Source: Terebella lapidaria
Taxonomy: Eukaryota; Annelida; Polychaeta; Terebellida; Terebellidae
Length of the DNA stretch: 64,000 nt
Reading direction: 5' to 3'
NCBI GenBank assembly: GCA_949152475.1
Contig: OX424555.1
Coordinates: 10,434,868 to 10,498,867, forward strand
Position numbers and translations under genes: made by a program. The notes beneath the pieces were generated by a model. It ran no database searches. It was not told where the DNA came from and saw only the letters and a list, made by a program, of their open reading frames with translations. This document shows, piece by piece, positions 1,826 to 25,160 of the stretch (within the stretch, counting starts at the first letter, position 1; each line of letters opens with the position of its first letter).

Positions 1826-3960
1826 ATTTGTCCGTCTTACCATAGTAAATAGGGGTCATTTCATCAGGTTTCACGAAATAAAAAAAATAATGGTTATCAC
1901 TTTAAGTACTAATTCGAGTTCATCTGGTTTGCTTGATATCTGAATGCATGAATATACATATACATGCTGGGGGTATGTATACTTACAGGTTGTGCAGATC
2001 ATTTGGAATTGTACGATTTACATGTGTGGGACTGTCTACCTGTTTTTTTTTTAAGCTAACTGGTGGAGACAGTGATACTTATTTCCAGTAATGGTTGATG
2101 TTGCTATGCAATCAAAAGTCGACAACAAGGTGCAGATCCCACAGTTACCACTGCCAATCAGGTAATTAAACCATGGTAGCGTGCCTAATTATTACATCAC
2201 TGGAACATGACGTCATATCAAATTGTACCGATATGACCTGAAATGTTAATTTAACAGTTGATAATACAGCTATCATAGCACTCTTAATTTGCACATTCCT
2301 GTGGATGAGGAAAAAATATGAGTGTTGTTTTCGGCCACCTAGCTTGTGAATTCACTGGTATCTATATTGTTTCCCGTAATATATTATAAATTCTGAACGA
2401 ACACTTATTGAATAGTTCATTCATTCTAACTAGTGAGTAGAACATGCAAATTCAGTCTGATTGTATAAAAGTGTGATTTTTATGGAACTGTTACCATATT
2501 TTAACCGGTTTGAAAGAAAGTGAATAACATTCGAATGATTCATAACCCAAAGGTCAAGCACGAGAGACGCTGTACATGCCGGGTGAAAGTTTAGTGCTCA
2601 CTTCAGTCACTTGTTTGCCTGGCGCCACCAAAGTTATCACGAAGCCTTTCAATCCCGGAGATGCTCTGTATTAAATAAAGCTTATCAGCCGTGAGAAGTA
2701 TAATCAAACATGATAAAAAGGATTATGACGATGAGTGGCATTGGGTAATATTTTCTGCGGGTGATTTACAATGGACTTGAATTTGGCAGGCAATACATGG
2801 TGTTCGTTGGATGACAAATAATGGCTTTGATGTGTTTGATGCTTCCCTACCGAGAATGTAAGCATCGAGTGACCTCGGTTTTACTACTGATATGAACTCA
2901 GCAATGCAATGTAAGTATCGATCTATTACCGCAAATACAGTAGATTTTGATGGTGCCAATAACAAACGTAAAATACAACATTTTGCAATAGAAACAAAGC
3001 CCGACCAAATAGTTTATCCAAAGACACACTGGCGTCATCAGGGGCAGACAGTGTGTTAAATGTAGTTGTTTCTACTGTACACCTGATGGAATTAGTATAC
3101 AACTGTCCAACAACCTGATGAATGATTTAGAAGTCCGAAACAAACTACATGGAACAGATATATGACAAGTACATAAGTACCTAATCACAAGCCAGAAATA
3201 TCACATATGCACACATGTATTTATTATCAATGTTCCAATTGGTCCTTCCTGAATACCCATTGTGGACAATCCTTTCCTCTAACTTTGACTCGACCCAAAC
3301 ACTGTCTTGCAGATGATAATTTTTCAGAATTTCTATCGATTATCGATGTGTTCCAAGACACAGTAGCTGTCTCACATAACCATTGATTTCAATGATCACT
3401 TCGACATGTACAACCTGATTCAAGTTATTGAGTATTATTCGTGAATAGAATGTTTTATTCGCAAATAGAATAGTTTTATTCGCGAATAGAACGTTTTATT
3501 CGCGAATAGAACGTTTTATCCGTGAATAGAATGTTTTATTCGTGAATAGAACGTTTTATTCGCGAACAGAACGTTTTATTCGCGAATAGAACGTTTTATT
3601 CGTGAATAGAACGTTTTATTCGCGAATAGAACGTTTTATTCGTGAATAGAACGTTTTATTCGTGAATAGAACGTTTTATTCACGAATAGAATATTTAGCG
3701 ATTTTTTTAAATTGGTGTCCTGCAAGAAAAATTTAGATGTCACATATCAGCCACCGTATATCTGGGCCGGTGCAATCAACCGCCCATCAACCCCCGTCTG
3801 ATAACTAACACCTTGAGTTTTTGGTGTATGAACCATCACAAAAATTCTGCTGGGGATTTTTTGCTTACTCTGTTGCAATTCAGCTACTAGTGTGACATAT
3901 TCCATTTATGTCAGGTGAATTACATTTCCATACAGTGTACATATTAAAGGATACTAGTGA
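590..3960 (+). repeat. Dispersed multi-kb repeat unit, copy 1
   Basis: A set of short landmarks occurs here in an order that recurs elsewhere in the window. They are a block ending in CATTGATTGTCG (about 590-720), a block around CCATTGAGTGCAAA (955), a block around GAATACACCCAAA (1526-1610), TTATCACGAAGCCTTTCAATC (2632), GACTCGACCCAAACACTG (3290) and GCTTACTCTGT with CAGCTACTAGT (3866-3890). Diverged copies are near 25.5-26.5 kb, 26.6-31.2 kb, 36.8-42.3 kb, 52.7-55.6 kb and from 61.3 kb. A block at about 2966-3160 is repeated in inverted orientation at about 31400-31600. No convincing long ORF is present, so the nature of the unit is unknown. Confidence 0.7.
3437..3692. repeat. 20-bp minisatellite with palindromic ATTCGCGAAT core
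   Basis: Thirteen tandem units of about 20 bp read GTTTTATTCGCGAATAGAAC. Units differ mostly by CG to TG or CA changes in the core, the pattern expected from CpG deamination. There is no spacer sequence, so this is a satellite and not a CRISPR array. Confidence 0.95.
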
Positions 3961-8291: not shown

Positions 8292-9912
8292 ATGGTTGTG
8301 AAATCAACCCGAACCTCTGTATCGTGTAAAATTTCCCATTCAGACTCTTCACAATGGCCTGGAATATGTCCAAGTAACTGATACTTCTCACAGTAGATCA
8401 TGCATGAAGTGTTGACTAAAACACTCGCATCACATATAGACTATATTAATTATGAATTGGACCCTATTTTTACAGGCCAGAAATGCCACTGAACCATTCC
8501 TGGAACCAGATATCAAGTACGCCCAGGTACATCACTTGTTTTCCTCAAAATCTGGGAAATGTGCAACTTCAAAATATAGGAAACTCTTTGTAGAATGGTT
8601 TCCCAAAAGTTATTTATATTCATCTGAGCTGGAATTACAGACTAAGTGCAACAAATTGCCTTTTGCATGAAAAAGAGCTTAGGTCACTGTGGTTCTATTT
8701 ATTTACGTAATTAGGCGACACGTTCGTTGTACATCGTTGATGGCAGCTCTTTTGAACTGATCAAAACATGAGTGGCTTCACCATAACATTTTGATCACTG
8801 TTCTGTAATGGCCTGTTTTCCTTTTGTTTCGTTACATATCATAGCACTCCAAACTAGTTCGTCGTGTCTCCGTTCTGTTGGCTTTGTGGTTCTTGTCTCC
8901 TGGCATGGTGATTCAGAATGTTGAGTGCAACGAACAATGAACGAACTGCGATGTAGAAGGATCTGCAAAGAACTTCAATGATTTCAATGGGAAAACGATG
9001 ATACACAATGATACAAGGACATATTAAAAATAATATAAAACAACAATGCCAATGTACGAAAATCCCCCGCGTATGGGCTGTAAATTTTTCATGAGGTACA
9101 GAAAGTACTGCGTAATCATTCTGACTAGCTCCTGTTCGCCTAATTCGTGACCATCAATATTCCGGAGAGTGGGACTTACGTTTTAAAAGTAGCAAATCGA
9201 AGGGCTAATGGAAGTAAATGCGGCAGTGAATTTGTCTTTTATTTGATATAATTGGGTTGCTAAAGTAATTTGATAGTGTGTGTTGAAAACTTAACTTCTC
9301 ACCAGCGGGTCAGATCATATGAATATGATTTGGTTTGACCTTGTCTGACTCTCGTGGATGATTCAAATATCCCCATTTGGCAAATCGTGCGTATAGAAAG
9401 ATCAATATTTGTAACTACCCGTTCCCAATGTAGTTTGCAAAGTTGATTGCACCATCTCCTTGCAATACTCAAGTTTATCCCTAAAACAACCCACACACAC
9501 GAATATTGGCATGTAACACTTGTCTTCATTGTCATGACATCTGTCAGATTGGAAGTCGCCCAGAATGTGGACATATAAGGCGGGTGTGCTATATTGGAAG
9601 AGAATGGAACCTAACTTGCAGACCATACAGTCCGTAGCCGTCCAACGTTCACCTCTTGTCGTAAATAGGCATCTACCTGAAGCCATCGGGATTTCTGCCA
9701 CATGACAATAATAGCTACAGACTGTCGGGCTCAACGCAGCAATTAATGCCATAGAGGGCTAGTGGCGCCTCAACACTTGATCCTGTAATAACCACATCCG
9801 ATATCTTTGAATTTAGGAGGATTATTTATGTCTTGACCAGAAGATATTACCATCCATGTATTAAATCACACTCCGGAAAAGAAAAGAAACATTCAATTGG
9901 AATCAATGCATG
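8292..9912. other. Intergenic stretch; one cysteine-rich open frame on the minus strand
   Basis: Most of the stretch shows no signal. On the minus strand, 9402-9752 encodes 116 codons with a cysteine-rich centre that includes the words GERWTATDCMVCKLGSI and NEDKCYM. Spacing of W, CxxC and later C-Y loosely recalls secreted beta-microseminoprotein-like domains, but the match is weak. It could be one exon of a secreted protein gene or chance. Confidence 0.2.
9909..9912. repeat. Target site duplication CATG, left
   Basis: CATG directly precedes the TG of the 5' LTR and recurs at 23348-23351 directly after the CA of the 3' LTR. A 5-bp duplication was tested and does not fit. Confidence 0.9.
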
Positions 9913-10661
9913 TGTAGTAATTTTAGCGACTGTTACTCCCGTCCCTCCCGCGCACTACACATTTCCACAACAAACATTCATTCTACATGACTTACATACA
10001 GGACAAGTACACACTATACGATCACAAGCATAAACTCCATGTAGTCATGGTTACATACACAGGTCAAACCACGCACCTGCGGCCCCGCTAGCTCAGTACA
10101 CTCGGCCCCGTTTACTCGACCTTGACCTTCACATGCACTGACTTCTAAACATAGAACTTGACACACATACTCCATACATCACGTGCACAGATACAGGCAT
10201 TACAAGTATTAACACGAGCCGGGGAAACCCACTTTCCCGGTGACATCAGCGCATTGCACCACACATTCAACCTATCACAACACCGCTTACACTTGGCGGG
10301 AAATTACACAGCCACATGGTCCCTCGGCCCCAGTCTACTGCGCAGAAGAGTAGTGTAAATCCCAGTGACAGGACGTATAAACAAAAGCTCCTGTGAAGAC
10401 TGTCGATATTAATATACGAACTGAATACAAGTGATATAAAAACCATTGGATATATGTGCAAGATATATAAAGGACTATAATAGGATTATATTCGACTGGG
10501 ATATCACCCGACGTAGGTGAGAGTGCGGCCCCGATTGTGAGTGACTGAATCATTGTTCTTATCACCACAATAAACAGTTGAATTGAAACTGCCGGCTTAT
10601 TGAATCACACGACGACCCAGTTAAACCGGCTTAATATCGGCCGTGAACGATATTCTTCACA
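9913..10661 (+). repeat. 5' LTR
   Basis: The LTR is 749 bp and runs TG to CA. TATA-like words TATAAA (10435) and TATATAA (10464) lie upstream of a polyadenylation word AATAAA at 10569, which would place R roughly in the last 200 bases. It differs from the 3' LTR at two positions that I could find. One of them is a CpG to CpA change. Confidence 0.96.
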
Positions 10662-10680
10662 TTGGCGCCGTTCGACCAGG
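10662..10680 (+). promoter_or_regulatory. Primer binding site region
   Basis: TTGGCGCCGTTCGACCAGG follows the 5' LTR immediately. TGG at one base from the LTR end is the expected complement of a tRNA CCA end. I cannot name the tRNA from the sequence alone. Confidence 0.6.
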
Positions 10681-10725
10681 ATCTGAGCTAGTCTCGAATT
10701 ATCGACCCAGACCTGACCGGCATTG

Positions 10726-13302
10726 ATGGCATTGGCCCCGGGAGCCTCCCGCGGTGAGCCACTCGACCCTACGGATGATGAAGTGACGATCAATCCGAAT
10801 CCAGCCTTCCGACCTTCCGGCCCTCGCTCAGTTGCCATGAGCGATACAGTTCCACTGTCGCAGGAGCAACAACCGTCCGGCCTTTTCGATTCCATTGGCG
10901 ACCATTCGTCCCTGAGATCGTTTTCGCCGCCTACCGACCTGGTGCAGGAGTTCCTAGACGAAGACCCGCTCGCGCCGTCACATACAGTAAGTGACATTCT
11001 GCGTGCGCACGCTAGAGCGTACTCGGCCACGCCGGCTAGAGCGACCCAGAAAAGTGACTTTGCCGACAGAGACTATACGCGCTCACGTCAAAGAGCGAGC
11101 GTAGATCGTGATATCGACCCAGAACAATTAGCAGTGAACGTTCGGCCGGTGACCATAGACACGTCAATGGTTACGCACCCACCAAGTAACTATCGGATAC
11201 GACAGTGGGTTTGTCAGTCTGACAATGTTCCAGAATCGACCCCGCCGAACGCTTATTCGGCCAATCGACCCCTGGCGCCGTCCATGACGCCGAGACAACA
11301 CGACCCCGCGCCAGAAATGTACTTACGCATACCGACCGAGCCTACGGTGGTAGAGTACACACGACCCAGCCAGACGGGAGCGACATCCGAAGACATCCTG
11401 GCGACGACCGCTACCCGGATCGCGACGCCGCTACGACAACAACGACCCAGCGACACAATGGCGGAATCTCGCGCCACCATGCGACAAGCGCGACCCCGAC
11501 AAGCACCCTCGACATCAAGTCGCCGACCCTGCGACCCCGACACGCCGACTTCCGAGACACGCGCTCCCGCGCCGACCACGCACCGACCATCGCCGACTAC
11601 CGGAGAACAACCGCGCTTCGATCCGTCGCAAGATCAAGTTGTGTCTGCTCCGGCAGAAAGTGTTGTGCCAATGATCGGACCTCCGATCTCACAATCAGTC
11701 GGAAACACCAACGGATATGGTGTACCGCCAGTCGGATACCCTGGCGCAACAAGCGGTGTTCCAAATGGAGTAGCTGTCGGATACTATTCACCGCATGTCG
11801 GCTACGCGAACCCACCGCCTGGATATGGTGGCGTTCCCAGCGTGATAGCTGACACCGGCTATCATGGTGCACAACCCGGATTAGTGTACCATGGTGTATG
11901 CCCAGATGGATCGGTATACCGATATCCACCACCGGCTGTATTCCCACCCTCAGTCGGGATACCATGGGTGACGCCTCCATACAGTCAACCGGCCCCCGCT
12001 GCACAAGCACCACACGACCCCAGTCACACGACGGCACCACCCGCCGCATCGCTCGCCGTCTCCGTGACGACAGCACCGACCGCCCCCGCTAACGCGACCC
12101 CGAACGACCCAGATACGACGGCTCCGGCGACTTCGGCTGTTCCGACTCCGACGGCCACTGCAGCGACTACACCAGTTGCGGTGAGTGTTGACACGCCCAC
12201 GCCACAGAGACTCACGTCTGAGCCCCAAACGTTGGCTATGGCTAAAATGGCTCAATGGCGTGCGACCTTCAAGGAGGGCAATCTCACTCAATACATTCGG
12301 AGTTTTGAACAGTTCACTGCGGCTTTCACTTACACCGACCTCAACAAGACGACGACCTTCCGGAGCACGCTACGCGGCCGCGCTGAAGCGCTAGCTCTAA
12401 ATATCCCGGTCGCAACTCCCTGGGGAGAGTTCCGTCGCCAACTCCTAGAGGGCTGGGAACCCGAGCCCCGTCGACAGTCGAAACGGGACAATTTCCCGTT
12501 CCTCAAGCGGGAACGAAAAGAGGACGCGGAACACTACATGGAGCGACTCCAGGCCCTGGCGGAGCAAGTGTTCGATGACGTTACGCCAACGTCGCGGCAA
12601 CGAACTGTAATTGCACAATTCGTGAACGGCCAACCCGACCCCATTGCCGATAAACTGTGTGCTCTCACTTTTAACAGTTACAGTGAGGCACTGACGGCCG
12701 TTCTCAAGGTAGAGAGTCGTCAACAGAGGACAGCCAGAGATCGACATCGAGGCACACGACGTGCTGACATTTCCGCAAGCGGATACGCGGAAGACGACCC
12801 TGTCAATGAAGAACTGTCCTGTGCCATGGGACAAGTCACTCAGGGGGAAACACTAACCCCAGAGCAAATTGCGGCCTACTACGACCCCGCGGACAGTGAC
12901 ACTACCGGCCTACAAGGTTGCGACGAACACTCAGTGCCAACCAGCTCACGCGAGTGGGTGGCTGAAGCCTTCCAGTGCGTCCTTAGTGACGAGAATGGAC
13001 TGTGCGAGGAAACGGCTATCTTCTCTGTCCTACGAACAACGGCCCCGATGAAAGGTGATCGACCCCCGCAACACGGACGACCCATGGTTTGCTTCTTTTG
13101 CAAGAAGCCCGGCCATCGCTGGATGCGGTGCTTTCGGCTTAAGGATGTGCTAGTACGTAACGGCATGAAACCGCTAGCATTTCGGCCCAATGGTCCCGGT
13201 ACTGACAGAAGGACAGCTCAAGTGTTGTCAGTACCTAACCAAACCGGTAACCAAACTAAACCGGCCCCACCAACACCTCCGACCCCGTCGTCAAACCAGT
13301 AG
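10726..13302 (+). CDS. gag: Gag polyprotein with zinc knuckle (858 codons)
   Basis: Gag is the structural polyprotein that forms the retrotransposon particle and packages its RNA. The first ATG in this frame is at 10726, 64 bases after the LTR; a TTG just upstream is not a likely start. Residues 1 to about 310 are Pro/Thr/Arg-rich and disordered. Residues about 325-420 are a low-complexity Gly/Tyr/Pro/Val segment with repeated GY pairs. A capsid-like helical domain of the retrotransposon Gag type follows at about 505-665, and a single CX2CX4HX4C zinc knuckle lies at residues 789-802. It is long for a Gypsy Gag because of the disordered N-terminal half. It ends at TAG 13300-13302. The pol frame is one base back and overlaps by 43 bases (13260-13302), so a -1 frameshift is the simplest route to Gag-Pol. 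Confidence 0.9.
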   Translation: MALAPGASRGEPLDPTDDEVTINPNPAFRPSGPRSVAMSDTVPLSQEQQPSGLFDSIGDHSSLRSFSPPTDLVQEFLDEDPLAPSHTVSDILRAHARAYSATPARATQKSDFADRDYTRSRQRASVDRDIDPEQLAVNVRPVTIDTSMVTHPPSNYRIRQWVCQSDNVPESTPPNAYSANRPLAPSMTPRQHDPAPEMYLRIPTEPTVVEYTRPSQTGATSEDILATTATRIATPLRQQRPSDTMAESRATMRQARPRQAPSTSSRRPCDPDTPTSETRAPAPTTHRPSPTTGEQPRFDPSQDQVVSAPAESVVPMIGPPISQSVGNTNGYGVPPVGYPGATSGVPNGVAVGYYSPHVGYANPPPGYGGVPSVIADTGYHGAQPGLVYHGVCPDGSVYRYPPPAVFPPSVGIPWVTPPYSQPAPAAQAPHDPSHTTAPPAASLAVSVTTAPTAPANATPNDPDTTAPATSAVPTPTATAATTPVAVSVDTPTPQRLTSEPQTLAMAKMAQWRATFKEGNLTQYIRSFEQFTAAFTYTDLNKTTTFRSTLRGRAEALALNIPVATPWGEFRRQLLEGWEPEPRRQSKRDNFPFLKRERKEDAEHYMERLQALAEQVFDDVTPTSRQRTVIAQFVNGQPDPIADKLCALTFNSYSEALTAVLKVESRQQRTARDRHRGTRRADISASGYAEDDPVNEELSCAMGQVTQGETLTPEQIAAYYDPADSDTTGLQGCDEHSVPTSSREWVAEAFQCVLSDENGLCEETAIFSVLRTTAPMKGDRPPQHGRPMVCFFCKKPGHRWMRCFRLKDVLVRNGMKPLAFRPNGPGTDRRTAQVLSVPNQTGNQTKPAPPTPPTPSSNQ

Positions 13303-14144
13303 GGGAAGGTGCTGAGGAGCAAGGACCTTCCAGACAACAGGACAACGTTCCCCGCTCCACATATGCGGTTGTCACGACTACTGTACCGGTAACGACACCA
13401 ATAACGACCCCGCAGCCGGCCCAGCCCACACCTCAGCTCCTTGAAGGGGTGTGTACCAAATGTCAAGCTCCGACCCCGAAATCGGCCTCTTTTCATGAAG
13501 GGGTGTCCGCACCGCGGCCACAGCGACCACCACGTGGAAACCGTCGTCCTGAAGGGGTGTCACCCCCGACCGCCAACGGCACCGGAACGGACAGCATGTC
13601 CGAGATTGAGTGGATCTCCGACGACGGAGGATTCTACGCCTTTCCGAGTGGACCGGAATCCAAACTGCCGCCTTTTCACACACTCTTCCGGCCACCGCTA
13701 GACGACCCCGAAATCCCGGCTGTCATCAACAACTCCAGCGCCACCAATCACAAATGCTGGAAGTTGCCGGTACACGTCGGAAACAAGACGATAAAGGCTG
13801 TACTCGACTCCGGAGCGCAGATCTCCCTGCTCCGACGCGATCAGCTACGTCACGTCCCCGCTGACCAGCGACATTTGCGGTCTACTTCGGCTATTATTCG
13901 TGACGTCACCGGACAGTCAAGCCCGATCGATGGACTGATCGACCTCTCAATACAGGTCGGAACCAACCATATGGTCGTAACCTTTTGTGTGGCTGACATA
14001 CATGACGACATGATTCTCGGCATGAACTTTTTTCGGCAAGCTCACGCTGTAGTGAATTACGGTGAAGGGACGATACAGGTACACAAAGAGATCCTGTTCG
14101 CACATAAAGACATTGAGGCCAATGTTGTCAGAATGGCCGTGTGA
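13260..14144 (+). CDS. pol: Pol part 1: linker and aspartic protease, ends at UGA
   Basis: This frame is open from 13260, just after an in-frame TAA at 13257-13259, and overlaps the end of gag. The first part is a Pro/Thr-rich linker. The retropepsin active site appears as LDSGAQISLL with the Asp codon at 13806, and a later ILGMNF word matches the usual second protease motif (IxGxDx/ILGxxF). Retropepsin cleaves the Gag-Pol polyprotein as a dimer. No early ATG is available, so the protein must come from frameshifting. The frame stops at TGA 14142-14144. Beyond it the same frame continues directly with sequence typical of the protease-RT linker, so this stop divides one pol frame and does not end it by a change of phase. 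Confidence 0.85.
   Translation, partial: TGPTNTSDPVVKPVGEGAEEQGPSRQQDNVPRSTYAVVTTTVPVTTPITTPQPAQPTPQLLEGVCTKCQAPTPKSASFHEGVSAPRPQRPPRGNRRPEGVSPPTANGTGTDSMSEIEWISDDGGFYAFPSGPESKLPPFHTLFRPPLDDPEIPAVINNSSATNHKCWKLPVHVGNKTIKAVLDSGAQISLLRRDQLRHVPADQRHLRSTSAIIRDVTGQSSPIDGLIDLSIQVGTNHMVVTFCVADIHDDMILGMNFFRQAHAVVNYGEGTIQVHKEILFAHKDIEANVVRMAV
14142..14144 (+). promoter_or_regulatory. In-frame UGA-C between protease and RT
   Basis: The codons around it read GTG TGA CGA. It is the first of three UGA-C codons in the pol frame, located at the protease-RT boundary. UGA followed by C is the leakiest stop context known in eukaryotes. It may be a programmed readthrough site or a CGA to TGA mutation. Confidence 0.5.
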
Positions 14145-15923
14145 CGAGCTGTCACCGTCCCCGCACGCAGCGAAGCAATAGTGGAGCTGGTCCCGACTTC
14201 CCGAGTTCGAGTTCGACAACACCCGAGGATAGTCCAGCCACTTACGACCTTTCCCGAGGAAACCGACCTCATCATGGGGAGAACACTTACGACCCTGAAT
14301 CGGCAGTGCGTAAAGGTGTCGGTAGTCAATCCAGCAGATACCGGCATTACGCTCACCCGTTCCGACCCTGTCGCCATAGCAAGCCCTGTCGAAAGTGTCG
14401 TCGGAGCTCTGCCACGACCCGGAGAGGAGCCCGACCCGGCCACGGTAGACGCCAGTCATTACCGCGACCTACCGCCACATCTACAAGAAATGGTGGATCG
14501 CGCCGGACTAGCGCCGGAACAACATCGGCGTTGCGCCAACCTGGTTCACCAATACCAGGACACATTCATGCACCCAGACGGCCAACTGGGACGGACCCAA
14601 GTCGTCCAGCATAGAATCGACACCGGCAACTCGGCCCCGATTCGACACCGACAGCGACGCGTCCCTCAGGCGCAGCAAAGCATCATCGACGAGGAGATCG
14701 ACAAGATGCTCCGCTTGGGGTGTATTGAGCCGTCAGATTCGCCCTGGAGCGCACAGGTAGTGCTCGTGCGGAAGAAGAACGGACAAGTACGCTTCTGTGT
14801 CGACTATCGGCTCCTGAATGACGTCACCCGCAAGGACTCGTATCCCTTGCCCAACATTCAGGACACTCATGACGCCCTGGCAGGCGCCAACTACTTCTCG
14901 GCCCTAGACCTGGCCTCCGGCTACTGGCAGGTCGAAGTCGACCCCAGCGATAGACCCAAGACTGCCTTCGCCACAAGGAAGGGACTCTATCAGTTTAAGG
15001 TCATGCCATTCGGCCTTAGCAACGCCCCGGCAACCTTCGAACGGCTTATGGAGACCATACTCCGTGGTTACTTGTGGACCCGGTGTATGTGCTATCTCGA
15101 CGACGTGATAGCTTACGTCAGAACATTCGATCAGGCACTCGCAAACCTGGAAGCGGTCCTGGATCGGATCAGATCGGCAGGCCTGAAACTACAGCCCAAG
15201 AAGTGTGAGTTGTTCCAACGGGAAATCTTGTACTTAGGGTTCATAGTGAGCGGCCAAGGAATCCGAGTCGACCCCAACAAAGTCAAAGCCATCAGAGAAT
15301 GGCCGACCCCGTGCGAGATCACCGACGTCAGGGCTTTCCTTGGTTTCGCCAACTACCACAGGCGATTCATCAAGGACTACGCTGAGATCGCTGAACCTCT
15401 CGTAGCGCTTACCCGAGGTGAATGCCACTTCACTTGGGGACCGGCCCAGCGACGAGCTTTCCAGCGACTCCGCGACGCCCTCATCAAGGCGCCCAAGCTC
15501 GCTCATCCGACCCAGAATCCGGAGGACTACTTCGTCCTCGACACGGATGCAAGCGGCTTTGCTGTGGGAGGAGCCCTCTCACAAAGGGTTAACGGGAAGG
15601 AGATCCCCATCGGGTTCGCCAGTAAAACCCTGTCCCGGACCCAGCGGAACTATTGCACCACCTATCGGGAACTACTGGCAGTAGTTGAGATGGTGCAACA
15701 CTATCGGCACTACCTCTGGGGTAGGAAATTCCTCCTCCGAACCGACCATAGCTCGCTAAGGTGGCTGAAAAACTACAGCGACGCCGACGGCATGCTCGCT
15801 AGGTGGCTCGCCAAGCTACAGCAGTATGACTTTCGGATAGAGCATCGACCCGGAAAACTACACGGTAACGCCGACGGCTTGTCACAGTGCCACAGTTGCA
15901 AACACCAAGACTGTCCCGGATGA
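14145..15923 (+). CDS. pol: Pol part 2: reverse transcriptase and RNase H, ends at UGA
   Basis: The segment has the same phase as the protease part, immediately after its UGA. RT signatures follow in order: a FCVDYRLLN-type palm motif near 14800, SALDLASGYWQV near 14900, MPFGLSNAPATF near 15005, the catalytic YLDD at 15093-15104 and LGF near 15235. A Ty3-type RNase H follows, with DTDASG near 15540, a conserved Glu in YRELLA near 15665, RTDHSSL near 15740 and HGNADGLS near 15862. These enzymes copy element RNA into DNA and degrade the RNA strand. The last codons are a Cys/His-rich tail, then TGA 15921-15923. Beyond it the same frame stays open into integrase. Catalytic residues look intact. 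Confidence 0.93.
   Translation, partial: RAVTVPARSEAIVELVPTSRVRVRQHPRIVQPLTTFPEETDLIMGRTLTTLNRQCVKVSVVNPADTGITLTRSDPVAIASPVESVVGALPRPGEEPDPATVDASHYRDLPPHLQEMVDRAGLAPEQHRRCANLVHQYQDTFMHPDGQLGRTQVVQHRIDTGNSAPIRHRQRRVPQAQQSIIDEEIDKMLRLGCIEPSDSPWSAQVVLVRKKNGQVRFCVDYRLLNDVTRKDSYPLPNIQDTHDALAGANYFSALDLASGYWQVEVDPSDRPKTAFATRKGLYQFKVMPFGLSNAPATFERLMETILRGYLWTRCMCYLDDVIAYVRTFDQALANLEAVLDRIRSAGLKLQPKKCELFQREILYLGFIVSGQGIRVDPNKVKAIREWPTPCEITDVRAFLGFANYHRRFIKDYAEIAEPLVALTRGECHFTWGPAQRRAFQRLRDALIKAPKLAHPTQNPEDYFVLDTDASGFAVGGALSQRVNGKEIPIGFASKTLSRTQRNYCTTYRELLAVVEMVQHYRHYLWGRKFLLRTDHSSLRWLKNYSDADGMLARWLAKLQQYDFRIEHRPGKLHGNADGLSQCHSCKHQDCPG
15921..15923 (+). promoter_or_regulatory. In-frame UGA-C between RNase H and integrase
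   Basis: The codons read GGA TGA CTC. UGA followed by CU is the core of known cellular readthrough motifs (UGA CUA). It lies between the last RNase H motif and the integrase linker. Confidence 0.5.
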
Positions 15924-17465
15924 CTCGTCACACCTCCGACCGACCCAGAAACAAGTTCCGGAGAACTTCCAGTTCGTCGGATAACTGTTGTTCCGACCCA
16001 GACAAGGGCAGACCTCCTGGACAGTGATTCGATAACATCACCGGTCTTGCCCCAGCTAGTTTCGGCACGCCAAGTTGTTCGAGTCCGTGCTTTGGACGCC
16101 ACACTTGATGGACAAAAGTGGCTTTCGGACTATTCGACCCAGGACATTGTCGCGGCACAGCAAGCCGACCCCAGCGTCGGAAAAGTGCGGCAATGGATAC
16201 TAGCCGGCACCAAGCCTGACTCGCGAGAAGTCGCCCGCCAAGGAGAGGAAGTAAAGACACTTGTTTCTCGCTGGAACCTCCTGGCGCTACAAGATGGAGT
16301 GCTGGTTCGACATATAAAACCCGACCCTGCTGGACGGCCCGTGGTGCAAACCGTGCTACCCGTAGCACTCAGGACACAAGTTCTGCACCAACTACACGAC
16401 CTCAAGATTGTCGGACATCTCGGCATACAGCGTACCATCGAGAGAGTCAGGCGCCGATTCTACTGGCCCGGCTTGGCGCTGGACGTCGCCCGCTGGTGTG
16501 CCCGCTGCCCGCAATGTGTGACCCGCAAGGGTAAACCGGCCCCAAAAAGATCGCCCCTGACACAGCTACCGACAGGAGCGCCGTTCGACAGAATAGCGAT
16601 GGACATCCTCGACACCCACAAGGTCACGGGAAGAGGCTATCGGTATATACTAGTCGTGTCGGACTACTTTACGAAGTACACTGACGCTTTTCCGCTACGG
16701 CGACATACGGCCAAAAATGTTGCCGACACCCTGGTGAATCGGTGGATAGTCTACCACGGTGTCCCCAAAGCGGTCCATAGCGACCAAGGTACTGAGTTTG
16801 AGTCGTCCCTGTTCCGGCATGTTGTGCGTCTACTGGGCGCTAAGAAGATTCGTACGACCCCATACCGACCCCAGAGCGACGGCCAGGTTGAGCGATTCAA
16901 CAGGACATTGCTCAACATGCTGAGTGCGTTCGTCAGCGATCGTGCAAACGATTGGGACTTGCACCTGCCATATGTGTTAATGGCCTATCGAACCTCAGTA
17001 CACTCGTCCACGGGATGCACCCCGCATCTGATGGTGTATGGACACGAGTGTAACTTGCCAGTCGACCTCATGTTTCCGACCTACGACCCTGAGCCACTAC
17101 CTCCGTGTGGTCCGGAGTATGTGGAGTATTTGCGGCAAGCCATCAGAACGGCCCACGGTTTCGCCCAAGACCATCTCGAGAAAGCGGCAATTCGGCAAAA
17201 GATGGGTTATGACGCCCACGCGAAACCACGACCCCAGTTTCAACCAGGCGAACTGGTCCGGTATTATTATCTGCCACTCACGCAGAATAATAAGTTCGCT
17301 CGGCCCTGGACTGGTCCCTGGAGGATCATCGACCGTGTAACCGAGGTGGATTACCGAATCGCCCTGGTTTCCAACCCTCGGAACACTCGTGTTGTTCATC
17401 TGGATGTGCTCAAGCCATACGAAGGTGACAACCAAGCGGCCCACATCTACTCCGACCCTGTATGA
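15924..17465 (+). CDS. pol: Pol part 3: integrase, ends at UGA
   Basis: This part continues in the same phase after the second UGA. After a Pro-rich linker an HHCC zinc-binding domain lies at about 16380-16525, with HDLKIVGH followed by CARCPQC. The catalytic core shows MDIL (first Asp, about 16600), HSDQGTEF (second Asp, about 16780) and GQVERFNR (Glu, about 16885). Towards the end GPWRI and VVHLDVLKPY fit the GPY/F module. Integrase inserts the cDNA into chromosomes; no chromodomain is visible. The frame meets TGA 17463-17465 just past the GPY/F module, but then stays open for another 122 codons. All expected catalytic residues appear present. Confidence 0.93.
   Translation, partial: LVTPPTDPETSSGELPVRRITVVPTQTRADLLDSDSITSPVLPQLVSARQVVRVRALDATLDGQKWLSDYSTQDIVAAQQADPSVGKVRQWILAGTKPDSREVARQGEEVKTLVSRWNLLALQDGVLVRHIKPDPAGRPVVQTVLPVALRTQVLHQLHDLKIVGHLGIQRTIERVRRRFYWPGLALDVARWCARCPQCVTRKGKPAPKRSPLTQLPTGAPFDRIAMDILDTHKVTGRGYRYILVVSDYFTKYTDAFPLRRHTAKNVADTLVNRWIVYHGVPKAVHSDQGTEFESSLFRHVVRLLGAKKIRTTPYRPQSDGQVERFNRTLLNMLSAFVSDRANDWDLHLPYVLMAYRTSVHSSTGCTPHLMVYGHECNLPVDLMFPTYDPEPLPPCGPEYVEYLRQAIRTAHGFAQDHLEKAAIRQKMGYDAHAKPRPQFQPGELVRYYYLPLTQNNKFARPWTGPWRIIDRVTEVDYRIALVSNPRNTRVVHLDVLKPYEGDNQAAHIYSDPV
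17463..17465 (+). promoter_or_regulatory. In-frame UGA-C between integrase and basic tail
   Basis: The codons read GTA TGA CCC. It lies directly after the integrase GPY/F module; the same frame then runs on for 122 codons to a UAA. Confidence 0.45.
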
Positions 17466-17834
17466 CCCACGTCGTCGTCAAGCAAGTCCGACCCAGAACA
17501 GTCACCCGACCCCATGGGACTTCTCAAGGAGTTCTATTACCCTTGGGAGGTAACAGTCCAAGATCGGCATACTGATTCAGACCAAACAGCAGAGTCTGAT
17601 TCGCAAACGACCCCGGATCGTCAATCGCGATCTCCGACTTCATCCGGCTCAAGTCGACATCGGCAACGGAAAAGATCACACAGATCGAGTTCCGACACTC
17701 CAAAACCGGCACGCAAGACACGCAGGCAAAAGCCTGTGGTATCTTCCGACCCTGAGACAAGCGAGGCTACGCCCCCGCCTGCACGACCACGTCGACCCAG
17801 ACGCAATGCACGCAAACCGGCCCGATATAGATAA
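17466..17834 (+). CDS. Pol part 4: basic Ser/Arg-rich tail in frame with integrase
   Basis: These 122 codons follow the third UGA in the same phase and end at TAA 17832-17834. The composition is strongly Arg, Ser, Pro and Lys, with runs such as RSRSPTSSGSSRHRQRKRS and ARKTRRQK. It could act as a nuclear localisation or chromatin-binding extension of integrase if the UGA is read through. Alternatively a start at ATG 17514 would give a free 106-residue basic protein. The first seven bases of that frame context offer no strong Kozak signal. The function is inference; the open frame and composition are seen directly. Confidence 0.55.
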   Translation, partial: PTSSSSKSDPEQSPDPMGLLKEFYYPWEVTVQDRHTDSDQTAESDSQTTPDRQSRSPTSSGSSRHRQRKRSHRSSSDTPKPARKTRRQKPVVSSDPETSEATPPPARPRRPRRNARKPARYR

Positions 17835-19280
17835 CCCCGGCCCTGTTATCTGATTGATATCATTGATGATGAATTATGCATGTCTAATGGACTATGATAT
17901 CATGTCTTTCCCCATAATAATATACTATATTACAATAACAATATATGCATTTAATATGTACAAGATGTCAGTGAGGCAAACTCGTTATATACACACTAGA
18001 TATGATATTATAATTATGATGCTGGTGAAAAATTGGTTGCATTATGATATGTGTTTCGACCCCGTATAACATGTACCATTGATCAAGGCGTATGTTACGC
18101 AATGACTAAGATTATCATGTAAAGCTTCCATCCATGTGCCAGCCGAAGAGGATAAAAACCAGTCACACCGTGAGTAAGGCCACTTAGTTGTCGAAGAGGT
18201 GATAGTGTGATTCGTTCTGGAGTATGCGTCGACAGAGCCTCTACTCACTCCATGTAATATTCGGAGGAACGGCCCAGTGGTACGTGAACCAGTCACTACA
18301 TAGCTATCATGCCAAGATGCGGCCTGTCATCAAATTCATCACCCAAAATATTCAAAGCGCCGCGGTGTGACCGACCCAGATCATTGCAATTTCGACCCCT
18401 ACAATAATTGCGGCCCCGTCGTCCTGCGAACTGGCTGAAAATGAATGGAACGATGTCCGCCCCTGTGAGTGATTGATATTCATATCTCAGCCTTTAATAA
18501 CTGTGTGTCGTCTGTGAAACAGCAACTCGACCCCGTAGTTTATTGTGCGCTAATTTGTGGGAGAAGGAACGATAAACTGATAAGTTCACAAGGCACGCAC
18601 GAGCGCTAATAAACACTTTAGCTGTTTACAGCACCTACATGAAATCGCCCCTGATAAAAACAATAGTGAGTCGTCGGGCAAAAAGAGCCCAGTAATTCGA
18701 ACAGTCGACAAGTATAAATAGACAATGATTCGGAACGAGTTATCCAGGGGACGGCAGATGGACATACGGAAATCTGGACAGTGTGAGGACACCCCTACTG
18801 TCGTAATGGACTGACCCAAGAGGTCAGAGAAGGATCGCTCCGCGTTTCCTTGACGACGGCCCCGCCTTGCTGTGTGTACGCTTGGAACAATGATACATAG
18901 CGTAAAGACGTTTTCTATACAGATAGAGAGCGCCCCCCGGCCCAGTTCTAAGAATCGAGATGCTGTCAGCATCTTTGTGTACGGCATTGAAGATTAGCGG
19001 CAATCAGGTCACTTGTGCCTGAGACTTTGAAGGAGAAAGACGGACTTGAAGTTTCGGCTATTGAGATACAGACTATTGTTCTAAAAACTGTGCTAATCGA
19101 ACAATAATTATCGGCCTATAAACTGTGATATTATTGAAATCCTGGTCACAAGACTTTGGAGTTAATTCGGCTTGGATTATCGGCATTTGAACTAGGCTGG
19201 TTTTGAAGAAATCCAGACTTTGTTACAACCAGCCTAGTCAGTACTTGGGAAGTACTTCGGCTTGATTTCGGCCCGTCAGC
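17835..19280 (+). other. Noncoding internal region between pol and ORF3
   Basis: About 1.45 kb without a supported coding frame. AT-rich at first (17840-18060), then mixed. It still carries the CGRCCC hexamer on the plus strand, including three within 18370-18420. A pyrimidine-led acceptor-like TTTTCTATACAG lies at about 18911-18922 and could serve a spliced ORF3 mRNA; a donor-like GCGGTGAGC lies at 10751 near the gag start. A minus-strand open frame at 18586-18987 has no recognisable features. Confidence 0.5.
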
Positions 19281-22079
19281 ATGGCTGACAAACCCGGAGA
19301 CGACCGGGAAAATAACGACCCAGGTGATAATCGGCCCCGTACAGTCAAGTTGGACGGCGATAACATCACCGTCCAAGTAGTCGACACCGGGGATGAATCG
19401 GATCATCCCATAATCGTCCCCGACAATGAAGTTTCGTCCGGCCCCGACTCGCAGCCTGAGCAGCGCGATCCAGTCACGCTCAGTGACACGGCAAGTGGAT
19501 CGGAGAAGGGAGCGCGACCCAAAACGGCCCGGAACAAGCTGGCGCAACGAGGAGAGCGCCATACACCGAGCCCGACTCCGGACGATATCTTCAACATCGA
19601 CCCCGAACGCTTCCGCCGACTCGAGGAGGGCGGGAGTATCGTCCAGCGTGCGATTGAAGCACGACAAGCGGCCCAAGAGGCTCAACGAGTCGCCACAGCG
19701 AGCCGCCAACCCGACCCAGCAAATCAGGTGATCGCCCCGATCGCTCCGGCCCCGACTTCACCTGCTTCCGGTTCAGCGGTAGCACGACCTGCGGCCTCCC
19801 GTTCTCCAAACAAGAGAACTTATACTTCTTTCAAGAAGAAACATGGAGCGGGAGCCCGATCGACCTCCAGCAGTTCGTCGCGCTCTAGTGGCGGATCTGC
19901 TATTACGGCCCCGACCTCGACTTTCCGTCGGCAAGTGGCGGAATTGATGGAACTGGTGCCACCTCCCGTGACACCCTACGGAACTCGGCCCATAGACTGG
20001 AACAAGGTTCCACTCAGCAAGCGAAATCGAAGCGCTGGATACGGCCATATCCACAATTTCGATGAGCAGTCGACCCTGTCGGAGGGAAACCTCCTCACGT
20101 TGGTTCCGCTACAGCGTGGAGACGGTCGCTACGAGTGCCCCTTCTGCATCGGCGAAGAGGAAGGAGCAGGAGAGCGACAGTGGTCCTCCGTGCCACGACG
20201 CGGACCCTTCCGGACGGCCCAGAGTCTCGACGCGCACGTACTAGCGTACCATTTTCCGTTCCTGCGCTACTTCGTGTGCCCGGCCCGCGACGGCTTCCGG
20301 ACATTGGCCCAGGAGGAGATGTTCCGGCATCTGTCCCAAGCGACCCCGCAACACGTGACGTCGTTCCCGTTCTACCAGGAGGGACGACTATCGGCATCCG
20401 GCCCCATGCTCGTCAGGTTCGCGCTACGCTGCAGAGTCGACATGCAGCCGAACCCGAATTATCGACCCCCAAGAGTTCCGGCCAACATCCCGATCTTCAG
20501 GAGGGATGTCAACACCGTCCTGACGTTCGGCATCTGGCACATGGCGCCAGAGCTCTTTGAGCAGTATCCGCCCAACTCGGCCCCGGAAGTGCAACAGGTA
20601 CTCCGTCGACTGGAGTACAGTCGTGCTTCGACCCCGGCAGACGAGATTCGGCTTACCCGCATGGTCAGTGACATCGAGACCATGAACACGCGGGTTCGAA
20701 TTCGACGACCCAGTACGATCTTCTTCGTTCGGCCCATAAATTACCAGACAACATCGGTGAGCACGGCGGAGGAGGTCCCGACAACGACCACCGGTGTTTC
20801 GGCCTCGGCAGTCGTCACGACGGCTTCGTTCGCGACAGTGGCGTCGCCAGCGACAACTCGACCGGTCACCACAGTGACATCTTCGACCCCGTCTAGAGCT
20901 CGGCCGTCGGATATCATACCCCGGCGGATGGTTGTGGAACGACCCACGGCCTCTAACGTCACGGACTACCGAGTCCGTGAGGGATTGGTCCCTCCACCTG
21001 AGGAGTATCCGCCACTCCCGAGTCGACCCCTGAATACCACACCGGTATCATCATCAACCGGCAAGGAGACTCCCGAGCCGAAGAGTCCAGCTGAGGATCG
21101 GCCGCCTCCACTCAGGGAGATTGCACCCGGATCTCCTGTACGTGCGACCCCGACACAGTTTTCGACCCCGGAATCTTCACCAGAGCCTTCACGACGGATG
21201 GTGGAACCCGTCCCGCTCCCGCCGTACCTCACGGAGGAAGTGGAACCTCTGTGCTCCGTCCCGACACGCGGCACCGATAGAGACCGGCCCCGACTCCAAG
21301 TGGACGACCCGGAGCAGCTTGAGTCGCTCCACAGGGATCTCGACGAGCGTCTCCCGTTCCATGGGTCTGGCGAGTTCGCGGCCGATTTCCAGTTCCTGCG
21401 GCAACACGGCAGACGTCTGGCGACCCGCTCGCTTCCCGGCCTGCAGGCGCTACCCGGCCAGAACCCCGACCTCACAGACTTTCTACGGGATGAGGACGCT
21501 CAGCGGCTCCCGAACTACCTCGGATTTCACGAGGACTTTTGGACGGCTCGTCTCGAACAGGCCGCCCATAATGCCGACCCTTTGCTTCTCCCGTCAGAAC
21601 CGGAAGAGCACCTTCCGACCCTGTCACTCGCCCGCGCTGATGATCTAGCGCACCAGTACTTGCGACTAATTCGTCGGGAGTACCTGTCGGCCCTGGATCA
21701 CCACATCAGGCAGGCAGAATATAACGGCCTGTCTGTCGGCTTTGGGATGGGTGCTCTGCACGAGCGCCACCAGCCCACGTTCCCGGACGCCCTGTCCGAA
21801 GAGAATTTACGGCTTCGAGTCCGTGTGACTCAGTTGGAGGATCAAGTCGCCCACCAACAACAGGAAATCACTCGGCTTCGAGCGACTTCGACCCCGACGC
21901 CATCGGAAGCACAAGCTCCGTCGACCCCGACCACACCGACCATCCCGGGGGAGTTGTTGGCCACAATTGTGTCCATCCTGCCCAGACTACCCCCGGACGA
22001 ACAGCTACAGCTGATGCGGCAGGCATCGCCAGCGGCCCCGCCTCCTCCCGCCAGCAGGCGCGAACGGGAGGACAAGTGA
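19281..22079 (+). CDS. ORF3, large accessory protein of unknown function (932 codons)
   Basis: The ATG at 19281 has A at -3 and G at +4, a good start context, and the frame ends at TGA-A 22077-22079. I do not recognise the family. Residues 1 to about 215 are acidic, then Pro/Ser-rich and basic. A possible zinc-binding site is C286xxC289 followed by H319xxxxH324, within a compact region (about 225-480) rich in aromatic residues that looks folded. Residues about 500-690 are Thr/Pro/Ser-rich and disordered. A second folded-looking, charged region spans about 690-835, a short coiled coil about 838-869, then a Pro-rich tail. No signal peptide or membrane segment is seen, so it is not an Env-like protein in spite of its position after pol. 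It has the same CGRCCC-rich composition as gag and pol, so it belongs to the element and is not a recent host capture. Confidence 0.75.
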   Translation: MADKPGDDRENNDPGDNRPRTVKLDGDNITVQVVDTGDESDHPIIVPDNEVSSGPDSQPEQRDPVTLSDTASGSEKGARPKTARNKLAQRGERHTPSPTPDDIFNIDPERFRRLEEGGSIVQRAIEARQAAQEAQRVATASRQPDPANQVIAPIAPAPTSPASGSAVARPAASRSPNKRTYTSFKKKHGAGARSTSSSSSRSSGGSAITAPTSTFRRQVAELMELVPPPVTPYGTRPIDWNKVPLSKRNRSAGYGHIHNFDEQSTLSEGNLLTLVPLQRGDGRYECPFCIGEEEGAGERQWSSVPRRGPFRTAQSLDAHVLAYHFPFLRYFVCPARDGFRTLAQEEMFRHLSQATPQHVTSFPFYQEGRLSASGPMLVRFALRCRVDMQPNPNYRPPRVPANIPIFRRDVNTVLTFGIWHMAPELFEQYPPNSAPEVQQVLRRLEYSRASTPADEIRLTRMVSDIETMNTRVRIRRPSTIFFVRPINYQTTSVSTAEEVPTTTTGVSASAVVTTASFATVASPATTRPVTTVTSSTPSRARPSDIIPRRMVVERPTASNVTDYRVREGLVPPPEEYPPLPSRPLNTTPVSSSTGKETPEPKSPAEDRPPPLREIAPGSPVRATPTQFSTPESSPEPSRRMVEPVPLPPYLTEEVEPLCSVPTRGTDRDRPRLQVDDPEQLESLHRDLDERLPFHGSGEFAADFQFLRQHGRRLATRSLPGLQALPGQNPDLTDFLRDEDAQRLPNYLGFHEDFWTARLEQAAHNADPLLLPSEPEEHLPTLSLARADDLAHQYLRLIRREYLSALDHHIRQAEYNGLSVGFGMGALHERHQPTFPDALSEENLRLRVRVTQLEDQVAHQQQEITRLRATSTPTPSEAQAPSTPTTPTIPGELLATIVSILPRLPPDEQLQLMRQASPAAPPPPASRREREDK

Positions 22080-22598
22080 AATTCGTCCCTGAACTGTTCG
22101 GCCCCTTGAACGCGGCCCCCACCGGCAGTGACCAAGCAATTCTGGTCACGGCATATTTATATTGTAAATAGTTGTACATATACATTTAATATCCTAGTCA
22201 TGGCTTTTCGTTTTTATACATGTAATTTAGTTAAGTTTAATCTTCATTTTATTTCAGTTCAATAGACTCTTAAAGTTATAGTTCCGTTTCGCTTTGAAAC
22301 GTCGAGGAGTTTCGTTTATCATTCCATCTCTTACATTCCATTCTTCATCGGTCATTGTTATGAATGTATTTGTATATGTATCATCGTAGAGACTGCTGAC
22401 GGACTGACTGCTGACGTTTATTTTGACAGTTAGGAATTTTTATTGTATGCAGTGTTTTCGCATTTCGCGCGGCGTGTGTGTGTGAGTGTTTTTGGGTTTG
22501 ACCTTTAGGACTTCTTAGCTTTTTATTGTTTAGTTTTTGGCGACGGTAGGGTCCGGGGAGGGTAATTCCGAGGGCGTAGAATTAATGAAGGGGTGTTA
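22080..22598 (+). other. 3' internal untranslated region and polypurine stretch
   Basis: AT-rich sequence with no ORF. A short purine run GAAGGGG at 22587-22593 followed by TGTTA sits just before the 3' LTR and is the best candidate polypurine tract, though weak and not directly adjacent. Confidence 0.5.
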
Positions 22599-23347
22599 TG
22601 TAGTAATTTTAGCGACTGTTACTCCCGTCCCTCCCGCGCACTACACATTTCCACAACAAACATTCATTCTACATGACTTACATACAGGACAAGTACACAC
22701 TATACGATCACAAGCATAAACTCCATGTAGTCATGGTTACATACACAGGTCAAACCACGCACCTGCAGCCCCGCTAGCTCAGTACACTCGGCCCCGTTTA
22801 CTCGACCTTGACCTTCACATGCACTGACTTCTAAACATAGAACTTGACACACATACTCCATACATCACGTGCACAGATACAGGCATTACAAGTATTAACA
22901 CGAGCCGGGGAAACCCACTTTCCCGGTGACATCAGCGCATTGCACCACACATTCAACCTATCACAACACCGCTTACACTTGGCGGGAAATTACACAGCCA
23001 CATGGTCCCTCGGCCCCAGTCTACTGCGCAGAAGAGTAGTGTAAATCCCAGTGACAGGACGTATAAACAAAAGCTCCTGTGAAGACTGTCGATATTAATA
23101 TACGAATTGAATACAAGTGATATAAAAACCATTGGATATATGTGCAAGATATATAAAGGACTATAATAGGATTATATTCGACTGGGATATCACCCGACGT
23201 AGGTGAGAGTGCGGCCCCGATTGTGAGTGACTGAATCATTGTTCTTATCACCACAATAAACAGTTGAATTGAAACTGCCGGCTTATTGAATCACACGACG
23301 ACCCAGTTAAACCGGCTTAATATCGGCCGTGAACGATATTCTTCACA
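22599..23347 (+). repeat. 3' LTR
   Basis: 749 bp, aligned to the 5' LTR at a constant offset of 12686 with no gap, running TGTAGTAA to TTCACA. The polyadenylation word AATAAA is at 23255. CATG follows at 23348-23351. Confidence 0.96.
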
Positions 23348-25160
23348 CATGTATCTATGACCATAACAGTTAATCCCGATACGGCAGTGAATAATAATAT
23401 GTGATATCGTGGAGCACACAATGCTTCGATTATGATAATTGATTATTACCCTGGACGTACACGCTGACGTGCGAAACCTCTTGCTACTTTAAGTAGTTTT
23501 TGTACCTGTAATGAATCAAGCGTCACACTTGTCACTGTTCGTTTTTCAAGGCTGATACCACCACAGGGTTATTTGGCAATCGTTTGTGTCACTGGTATGG
23601 AGGGGCTTTCTTGTGTTTATTGGAGAGAGTTCTATCGAAAACGACAGCACAGCATCGACAAAAGACAGTCTGCTATATATGACTGCTGTGACGCATGTAC
23701 ACGTGTTTCCGTGTCATGTTCACGCTATTTACCTCAGGTTATCTCGTGGTCAGCAGCCCACGGACACCAATCCTCACCCAGGAAAATGACTATTGAACGT
23801 CTATGCCGGGCATATTTCTCTAGCTCCGGCTATTGTCATATGATGGAATTTTGTGCCCGGTCTAACCCAGAGGATCCGCCAGCTGTCAGCACAAAGACTG
23901 CAGAAGTTTGAAGCTATTAACATCACGGGGAGTATGTAGGATCCATAATTCACAAGTCTAGCTCCTTGTGTCATGTAAAGGGTGTTGTCGCAAAAATGTA
24001 GTGGGTCCTTTTTCATTAACAAATATTACCAATATTCTTCAATTAAGAATAGATTATATAGAGGCCTATATGTATTCTCTGCTTTGACATTGACTGAATT
24101 GTGAGGAAATTGAAGGATCTGTTATAAACTTTCCGATATTTGGTGGAACAAAACCTTTGACATGGGTTCTTGCTATCAGTTCATGAAAGATCATGACTTC
24201 CTAACATTGATTTCTCAAATGCACGCGATATTGTGTTCAGGGCCTGGAACTTGATGATCGAAATTCAGTTGTTTTGTTGTTTATCACCCACATACAAGGA
24301 AAATATTATATGTTTCAAAAATAAGCAAACATGGATCAGGAGTTGTGAATCAATGTTGTGTTTGTGATATAGCAACAGTATGAATAAGACGCTTTCTCTT
24401 TCTCTAAAAGCAGGACTTTTCTGTTGGTCACTGCAACATGGTTGCTTTCGATTAGCCAAGGTCATTCATGTTCTCTCGATTTATGAACATGTAACCTTAT
24501 TTGACATTATTTTGGAACGAACGGAAATTTACAGGAAGTTGCAGAAACGAACATGCTGTTTGTTGAGGGCTGAGTTGAGAGAGTGTCTTATATAAAGTTA
24601 ATACAAAGTAATAGAAATGTAGGCTCAGGCATAGTTTGTTTTGGGAACCGATTGATTTAGTTTTTGGCGATTATATGATGTATATAAACAATTTTGGAAC
24701 ACATGAATATAAGTATTGTAATACAATTAGTATTATGCCCACGCTTTCAGTGGATATCATAACAGAGTATTGAATATAATATACACTCGGGACTAATTGC
24801 CCGGAACTGGATGTGTTTACATGTATATGCGGAATCAAATTCGGAGTAATGTATATAGATTGTAAGAGCACTCTTAATCATTTAACAACACAATATGCAA
24901 GGAGAGAAATCAGACACTGAATTTCATTGGAACCTTGCATTTTATGAGCAAATACCTTGACCATTTCTATTTTTCCATACAAATTCTGACACCATATTCA
25001 TCTGAATCCACCACAGAGGATATCAAATGTTATATCACAGCTCCGATACTTCACCTTAATTGCGAAGTTTGATATCGACAGACGGATGTATTTTATTTTT
25101 GCAGCTCACCAACACTTTTCAACTGGCATGGTGTGTTTGTATATCAACAATATACAATGT
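23348..25160. other. Intergenic stretch without a recognised gene
   Basis: No gene is supported. A block at about 23655-23830 is repeated in inverted, diverged form at about 63610-63840. From about 24360 the sequence joins the dispersed repeat unit (CTTTCTCTTTCTCTAAAAGC at 24391 matches similar words near 26670 and 37525). Confidence 0.6.

Follow-up and report, generated by a model that had tools for sequence, protein, structure and literature searches.

A strand-exclusive hexamer under purifying selection is dispersed through a Ty3-type LTR retrotransposon of Terebella lapidaria, and sister families carry other words

A Ty3-type LTR retrotransposon in the genome of the annelid Terebella lapidaria carries the short word CGRCCC along its plus strand, in coding and noncoding parts and in every reading phase, and lacks its complement. 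The element, named F1 here, occupies positions 9913–23347 of the window, the 64,000-nucleotide stretch of DNA that was analysed. Its plus strand holds 74 CGACCC and 45 CGGCCC, together 119 CGRCCC (10080..23304, the first site starting at 10080 and the last at 23299), and 0 GGGYCG, in agreement with an earlier note on this DNA, which had counted about 119 by hand and seen essentially none of the complement. The remaining 50,565 bases have 10 CGRCCC forward and 7 reverse. The data support purifying selection on the word, independent of phase and exclusive to one strand, and the word switches between sister families, F2 having a different word and F3 a third, weaker one. We give about an even chance to the reading that the hexamer serves F1 as a selected recognition tag of its own, which would be read most likely in genomic RNA or plus-strand single-stranded DNA by a protein of the element.

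F1 is a full-length element. Its two LTRs (5′ LTR, 9913–10661, TG...CA; 3′ LTR, 22599–23347; both 749 bp) are identical at 747 of 749 positions, and CATG flanks the element on both sides as a short target-site duplication. The 5′ LTR has five CGRCCC, at 10080, 10103, 10325, 10526 and 10613, and the 3′ LTR has four; one of the just two differences between the LTRs falls within the site at 10080–10085 (3′ LTR counterpart near 22766). All features lie on the plus strand. The Gag ORF (10723–13302, 859 aa, 25 CGRCCC in three phases) is without a Pfam match and has one CCHC knuckle, seen in the alignment. The pol gene is a single frame, 13449–17465, interrupted in the window copy; it comprises a protease part (13449–14144; gag-asp_proteas, 8e-08; 2 CGRCCC), a reverse transcriptase (RT) and RNase H part (14181–15923; RVT_1, 1.7e-35; RT_RNaseH, 2e-33; 12 CGRCCC) and an integrase (IN) part (16047–17465; Integrase_H2C2, 9.4e-21; rve, 2.8e-12; 13 CGRCCC). 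The Pfam matches run protease–RT–RNase H–IN, with RT before IN in the Ty3/gypsy order. Between the integrase and a third ORF lies a noncoding stretch of 1.8 kb (17466–19280, 16 CGRCCC, 8.8 per kb), which the earlier note had put at 1.45 kb. The third ORF, ORF3 (19281–22079, 932 aa, 35 CGRCCC), contains a C286-x2-C289...H319-x4-H324 unit.

Relatives of the F1 integrase in the protein database reach 75% identity; among the best 120 of 626 matches, those from named animals belong to molluscs, a priapulid and a fish, at 42–45%. An RT query on the element's own genome (761.6 Mb) gave at least 75 copies of F1, 75 having been scored of 12,412 candidates. The copies listed besides the window's own are all 99% identical, and most have an open RT frame of about 1524 aa; the family is young and numerous. 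Elsewhere in the window, two long overlapping ORFs on the minus strand (43597–47671, 789 and 620 aa) resemble parts of a gene, either mobile or domesticated. Three pairs of direct repeats (30421–33300/54911–57788, 34646–35387/59860–60621 and 1–1787/51581–54108), mostly 88–100% identical and about 24–25 kb or 52 kb apart, suggest large duplicated or nested mobile segments.

The ORFs hold 87 of the 119 sites, and phases 0, 1 and 2 are used 23, 38 and 26 times across the five ORFs. Sites outside the ORFs include, besides those of the LTRs and of the stretch between IN and ORF3, one at 10703 and two after ORF3 (22099 and 22113); the spread over all three codon phases, the LTR, noncoding DNA and the region beyond ORF3 had been described correctly. 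Placement along F1 is uniform (KS p = 0.71), and spacing is random (KS against exponential, p = 0.46); regular spacing is ruled out, the distances being exponential. The four largest gaps are 22113–22789, 13703–14290, 12105–12636 and 11532–11990; the earlier note had named gaps at 11570–11965 and after 22120. No tandem repeats were found in a scan of window positions 9000–25000, which covers F1. A tandem array of a 20-bp unit lies at 3433–3736. One-base variants of the word are far rarer in F1 than CGACCC (74) or CGGCCC (45): CAACCC occurs 4 times, and the commonest, CGACCT, 18 times. The hexamer first proposed is enriched as claimed, but the motif is wider than six bases, with C or A in the 7th place at 92 of the 119 sites and G in the 8th at 79.

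The word count is far above what coding or composition models give. The coding nulls were a synonymous-codon shuffle and 3-periodic Markov models. The codon-preserving shuffle, which the earlier note had proposed as a check, leaves the excess standing: 1000 synonymous shuffles of the F1 ORFs gave a mean of 22.9 sites (sd 3.95, maximum 40) against the 87 observed. Taken ORF by ORF, the same shuffle shows an excess in Gag, RT, IN and ORF3, and none in the protease part (2 against 1.5 expected). A 3-periodic Markov model of order 3 gave 40.5 sites in the ORFs, with a maximum of 61 in 200. For the whole of F1, Markov models of order 1, 2 and 3 predict 15.2, 23.9 and 51.5 sites against 119; the order-3 model, which already includes the tetramers of the word, reached at most 75 in 200.

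Comparison of five F1 sub-lineages of the same genome (A–E, 91–96% DNA identity) shows that the word is kept. At fourfold third positions falling on motif places 1, 2, 4 and 5, the mismatch count is 2 in 351 cells; outside the motif it is 333 in 3576. Counted as unique fourfold columns over the five sub-lineages, 1 of 85 is variable within the motif and 199 of 892 are variable outside it (Fisher p = 5.8e-8). The same holds for noncoding DNA, where 6 of 112 motif columns vary against 625 of 3475 outside (p = 2e-4), or against 237 of 1487 when only C and G columns are compared (p = 0.0015). Place 6 is free at fourfold sites (12/91) and tolerates C to T (19 of 25 changed or gapped cells); place 3 is intermediate (5/91 for A and G together, 4/30 for G). 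In a ranking that did not preselect the word, among 140 hexamers with at least 40 cells, CGACCC was the best kept and CGGCCC the third. In the 3′ part of sub-lineage C, which is 84% identical to the window, 23 of 26 window sites are kept.

Exact retention of the whole motif, compared with hexamers of the same composition outside it, was 88/99 against 128/149 in A, 83/101 against 122/166 in B, 77/96 against 106/168 in C and 98/106 against 150/174 in E; in D it was no better (89/99 against 152/168). By these counts B and C show a clear effect and A and E a small one, whereas D shows none. In a protein comparison with 17 relatives, integrase residues at motif sites are less conserved than those elsewhere (224/513 against 4016/6603), so either the sites lie in variable stretches or the relatives differ. 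The [DGR]P dipeptide bias in 25 close integrase relatives, 1.03 of expectation, is uninformative.

Two sister families, F2 and F3, were reached in the same genome with a metagenomic integrase query (P0010) that is 55% identical to the integrase of the window. F2 (loci L067, L068, L069, L071 and L073) is 89% identical to F1 in RT, 88% in IN and 61% in Gag; its ORF3 is 44–50% identical by segment, and 51% with an open F2 copy. The earlier note had held that relatives with similar proteins but lacking the hexamer would speak against selection. F2 is indeed without the CGRCCC excess (5 forward, 4 reverse in 9.1 kb), yet bears a word of its own, CGRACY, at 61:1; a second F2 copy (7.5 kb) has 3:4 and 63:3, respectively. 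In F2, CGGAC occurs in three phases and lies above the synonymous-shuffle mean in 5 of 5 coding segments, in three of them beyond 500 of 500 shuffles. The F2 sites do not sit at the places of F1 sites (within 2 nt): 0 of 12 coincide in RT, with 0.4 expected, and 2 of 16 around IN, with 0.8 expected. Between F2 copies that are 83% identical, CGRACY is kept at 26 of 40 sites, against 356 of 978 for other CpG hexamers, which were counted more strictly, by exact retention.

F3 (loci L074, L064 and L070, with one full copy) is 73% identical to F1 in IN and 37% in Gag. Its forward-to-reverse counts are 43:3 for CGWGAA, 10:3 for CGRCCC and 7:10 for CGRACY; they rest on the copy on contig C4, because L065 and L066 stop short of the 3′ end. 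Against a cross-family background, the forward word numbers 119 against 9.4 in F1, 61 against 10.5 in F2 and 43 against 3.9 in F3, and the hexamer z is 20.2 for CGACCC in F1 and 9.0 for CGAGAA in F3. CGWGAA exceeds 500 of 500 synonymous shuffles only in Gag (12, maximum 8), the values being 8 (maximum 9) in pol and 6 (maximum 6) in IN. F3 also has a smaller excess of CGACC on one strand (47:5, 21.7 expected), which makes its word less clean. F3 is the weakest of the three family cases, and evidence of selection on the word comes from two of the three families, F1 and F2. Adjoining the F3 copy on C4 there is a long ORF (L070:2298–3500) that resembles a multi-pass membrane protein of the cystinosin-like kind.

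The complement bears on whether the word acts on a single or a double strand. Relative to expected counts taken from families in which the respective word has no meaning, the complement is depleted in F1 (0 against 5.7, p = 0.003), in F2 (1 against 10.9, p = 2e-4) and in the second F2 copy (3 against 9.0, p = 0.02); in F3 there is no significant depletion (3 against 4.5). Exclusive orientation without tandem repeats means that each F1 site is selected in its own orientation. In RNA, antisense copies would base-pair with the word, and this, we suggest, would be a reason to avoid the complement. The F1 words are also slightly more unpaired than hexamers of the same composition (0.523 against 0.485, p = 0.008), or than those that also contain a CpG (0.469, p = 4e-4); for the hexamer as a whole, the chance of being unpaired is no higher than at all positions (0.102 against 0.104). 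The 119:0 count without tandem repeats, the complement depletion in F1 and F2 and the slight unpairedness favour RNA or single-stranded DNA over double-stranded DNA, and we consider it likely that the word acts on a single strand. Of the earlier claim of selection on RNA or single-stranded DNA, the selection on the hexamer is supported, a single strand is favoured, and a hairpin packaging signal is unsupported. Two structural candidates were tried and rejected: a hairpin packaging signal, pairing of the flanks being at background over 18 offsets, and a G-quadruplex or i-motif, for which F1 gave zero matches to four C3 or G3 runs.

The best explanation would run as follows. A tag would span the whole plus strand of the retrotransposon, and a protein encoded by the element would read it as a short linear word in genomic RNA or plus-strand single-stranded DNA. 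Each family could in this way distinguish its own RNA from other cellular RNAs and from those of its sister families. Recognition may serve nuclear export, coating or packaging; export or packaging would be the presumable purpose.

The strongest competitor, unlikely in our estimate, is an anti-silencing function like that of the VANC proteins of VANDAL transposons, in which ORF3 would bind the double-stranded word in integrated copies and remove silent chromatin, with one protein–word pair per family. It would account for a diverging accessory protein that goes with a family-specific word, as in VANDAL. It fits less well with an element without tandem repeats whose sites lie in all ORFs and phases: tandem duplication can give one orientation in VANDAL, but it cannot yield 119:0 at separate sites, and a double-strand reader has no need of the complement depletion in F1 and F2.

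For a tag read on a single strand, the reader is probably a protein encoded by the element, and ORF3 leads the candidates: its F1 and F2 versions share 51% identity, while the Gag knuckle hardly changes. Over all readings, the chance that ORF3 is the reader appears somewhat short of even. The dN/dS of ORF3 against the five sub-lineages, with motif codons excluded, is 0.05–0.14 (for C and D over part of ORF3 only), and ORF3 is therefore a working protein. It has no Pfam domain, no homologues among the 8000 and 548 protein-database candidates that were scored, and no match at E ≤ 10 in phage records. The first Cys/His unit, C286-x2-C289...H319-x4-H324, is 63% identical between F1 and F2 over residues 285–325, and a second unit after C333, with H350, is 44% identical over 334–360. 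The unit borders were chosen by us, and 44% is not unusual for ORF3, other segments ranging from 40 to 75%. Sub-lineage B has R in place of H358 of the second unit, and the AlphaFold model of the Cys/His region is unusable (mean pLDDT 29.5). In the full F3 copy no ORF3 is detectable, tblastn of the 3′ pieces at E ≤ 10 giving chance-level matches only; this weakens the choice of ORF3, and the F3 copy may rely on a different copy, or else on Gag.

Gag would be the reader in a variant of the same explanation, counted within its odds, in which a dispersed packaging word is bound by Gag outside the conserved zinc knuckle. Gag is present in all three word-bearing families, including F3 with no detectable ORF3, and it diverges to 61% (F1–F2) and 37% (F1–F3), so that divergence as such does not single out ORF3. 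The CCHC knuckle, on the other hand, is nearly constant, with a single residue changed from F1 to F2, while the word switches, and the sites are linear and outside hairpins; we regard a Gag-borne reader as rather improbable.

A more specific form of the tag reading is put forward tentatively, as less likely than not. Co-resident Ty3-type families may each write their own CG-hexamer (CGRCCC, CGRACY or CGWGAA) through the plus-strand RNA as a self/non-self barcode, which would co-evolve with a two-part Cys/His reader encoded by the element, ORF3; CGR and the first unit would stay, and the second half of the word and the second unit would change. A match of the first unit to the unchanged CGR, and of the second unit to the half that changes, is tempting, and just two families bear on it.

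Reading by a host RNA-binding protein, presumably of the poly-C or SR type, which the element would exploit for export, stability or evasion of splicing of its unspliced RNA, seems still less probable. A C-rich word with the slight unpaired excess given above would suit such a protein, but its strict CGR start would not, and, as F2 and F3 have other words in this host, three host readers would be required; moreover, the doublet CGRCCCCGRCCC is not enriched in the host genome (135/132, against 130/137 for a backwards control). That CGRCCC is a by-product of codon usage, amino-acid composition or mutation bias is very improbable: the F1 plus strand is C-rich (C 0.298, G 0.247) and CGRC remains skewed when the motifs are masked (CGAC 132 against GTCG 65, CGGC 120 against GCCG 47), but the synonymous shuffle, the order-3 Markov model, the three phases, the noncoding sites, the fourfold-site conservation and the family-specific words all oppose it.

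It is an open question by what means a retroelement tells its RNA apart from host RNA and from the RNA of close relatives. The three related families described here share one genome and have differing strand-biased words in coding and noncoding parts alike, with one word in roughly every 110 to 210 nt. If the tag reading is right, a second code at the level of the nucleic acid would constrain nearly every protein of the element. Simple binding tests, in which the sister words serve as controls, are a way to look for the reader and for the step that it serves. A search of the open-licence literature found no description of a family-specific word or tag running through a retroelement.

Searches beyond the three families gave no viral contigs. 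Five distant Ty3-type loci in prokaryote assemblies (L001–L005), probably contamination, have no one-strand CGRCCC excess (10:12 in L001, 0–1 in the others). One of these distant elements, L001, has a third ORF but no hexamer tag, which counts against the tag reading. The strongest hexamer of L001 has a z of 5.2 (7-mers up to 7.6); AGGACG occurs there at 22:1, yet is outside the strongest words against dinucleotide expectation. The third ORF of L001 (L001:6915–10070, 1051 aa) lies on a contig filed as Calditrichota bacterium, probably animal contamination; it has no detectable homology to ORF3, with Cys/His spacing that is similar by eye. Ten further places with CGRCCCCGRCCC comprised one in F1 (28:0) and nine with 0–5 words per strand in 3 kb. 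Fifteen places with CGGCCCCGACCC lie on one strand within about 420 kb (G000:C1:96267191–96688892), probably a gene or an array of repeats that has no relation to F1; at L061, one of these places, CGRCCC occurs 3 times forward and once reverse in 3 kb.

Among known systems, the DNA uptake sequence dialects of the Neisseriaceae are short, family-specific words that mark self DNA and are dispersed in coding DNA; they occur in both orientations and act as double-stranded DNA in bacterial transformation. The proposed F1 tag would resemble them as a dispersed self word and differs from them in its single orientation. Single-stranded RNA viruses have dispersed packaging signals, many weak sites along the genomic RNA, which are hairpins; the F1 word is a strict linear hexamer without hairpin context.

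The nearest functional model for ORF3 is CERV of the C. elegans Ty3-type element Cer1, likewise an accessory protein of a Ty3-type element, which is described as needed for nuclear export of the genomic RNA (PMC10309623). CERV has a candidate C4 finger, unlike the C-x2-C...H-x4-H unit of ORF3, and the description of CERV, as far as it goes, differs from F1 in mentioning no dispersed motif (PMC10309623).

The closest described system is that of VANDAL and VANC. VANC21 of the Arabidopsis element VANDAL21 is reported to bind YAGTATTAY motifs that are dense and in one orientation, mostly in noncoding regions and often as tandem repeats (PMC5735166), and the related VANC6 uses different motifs (PMC10398659). 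VANDAL is a DNA transposon and F1 an LTR element, without tandem repeats and with 87 of 119 sites in ORFs; unlike in VANDAL, motifs lie in every ORF and phase, and the complement is avoided in F1 and F2. A word change together with a diverged accessory protein is seen between F1 and F2, and F3 has a word without a detectable ORF3. The likeness to VANDAL, as described for those elements, lies in an accessory protein that goes with a short, dense, one-orientation motif and, for F1 and F2, in a motif and a protein that both vary between the sister families (PMC5735166, PMC10398659).
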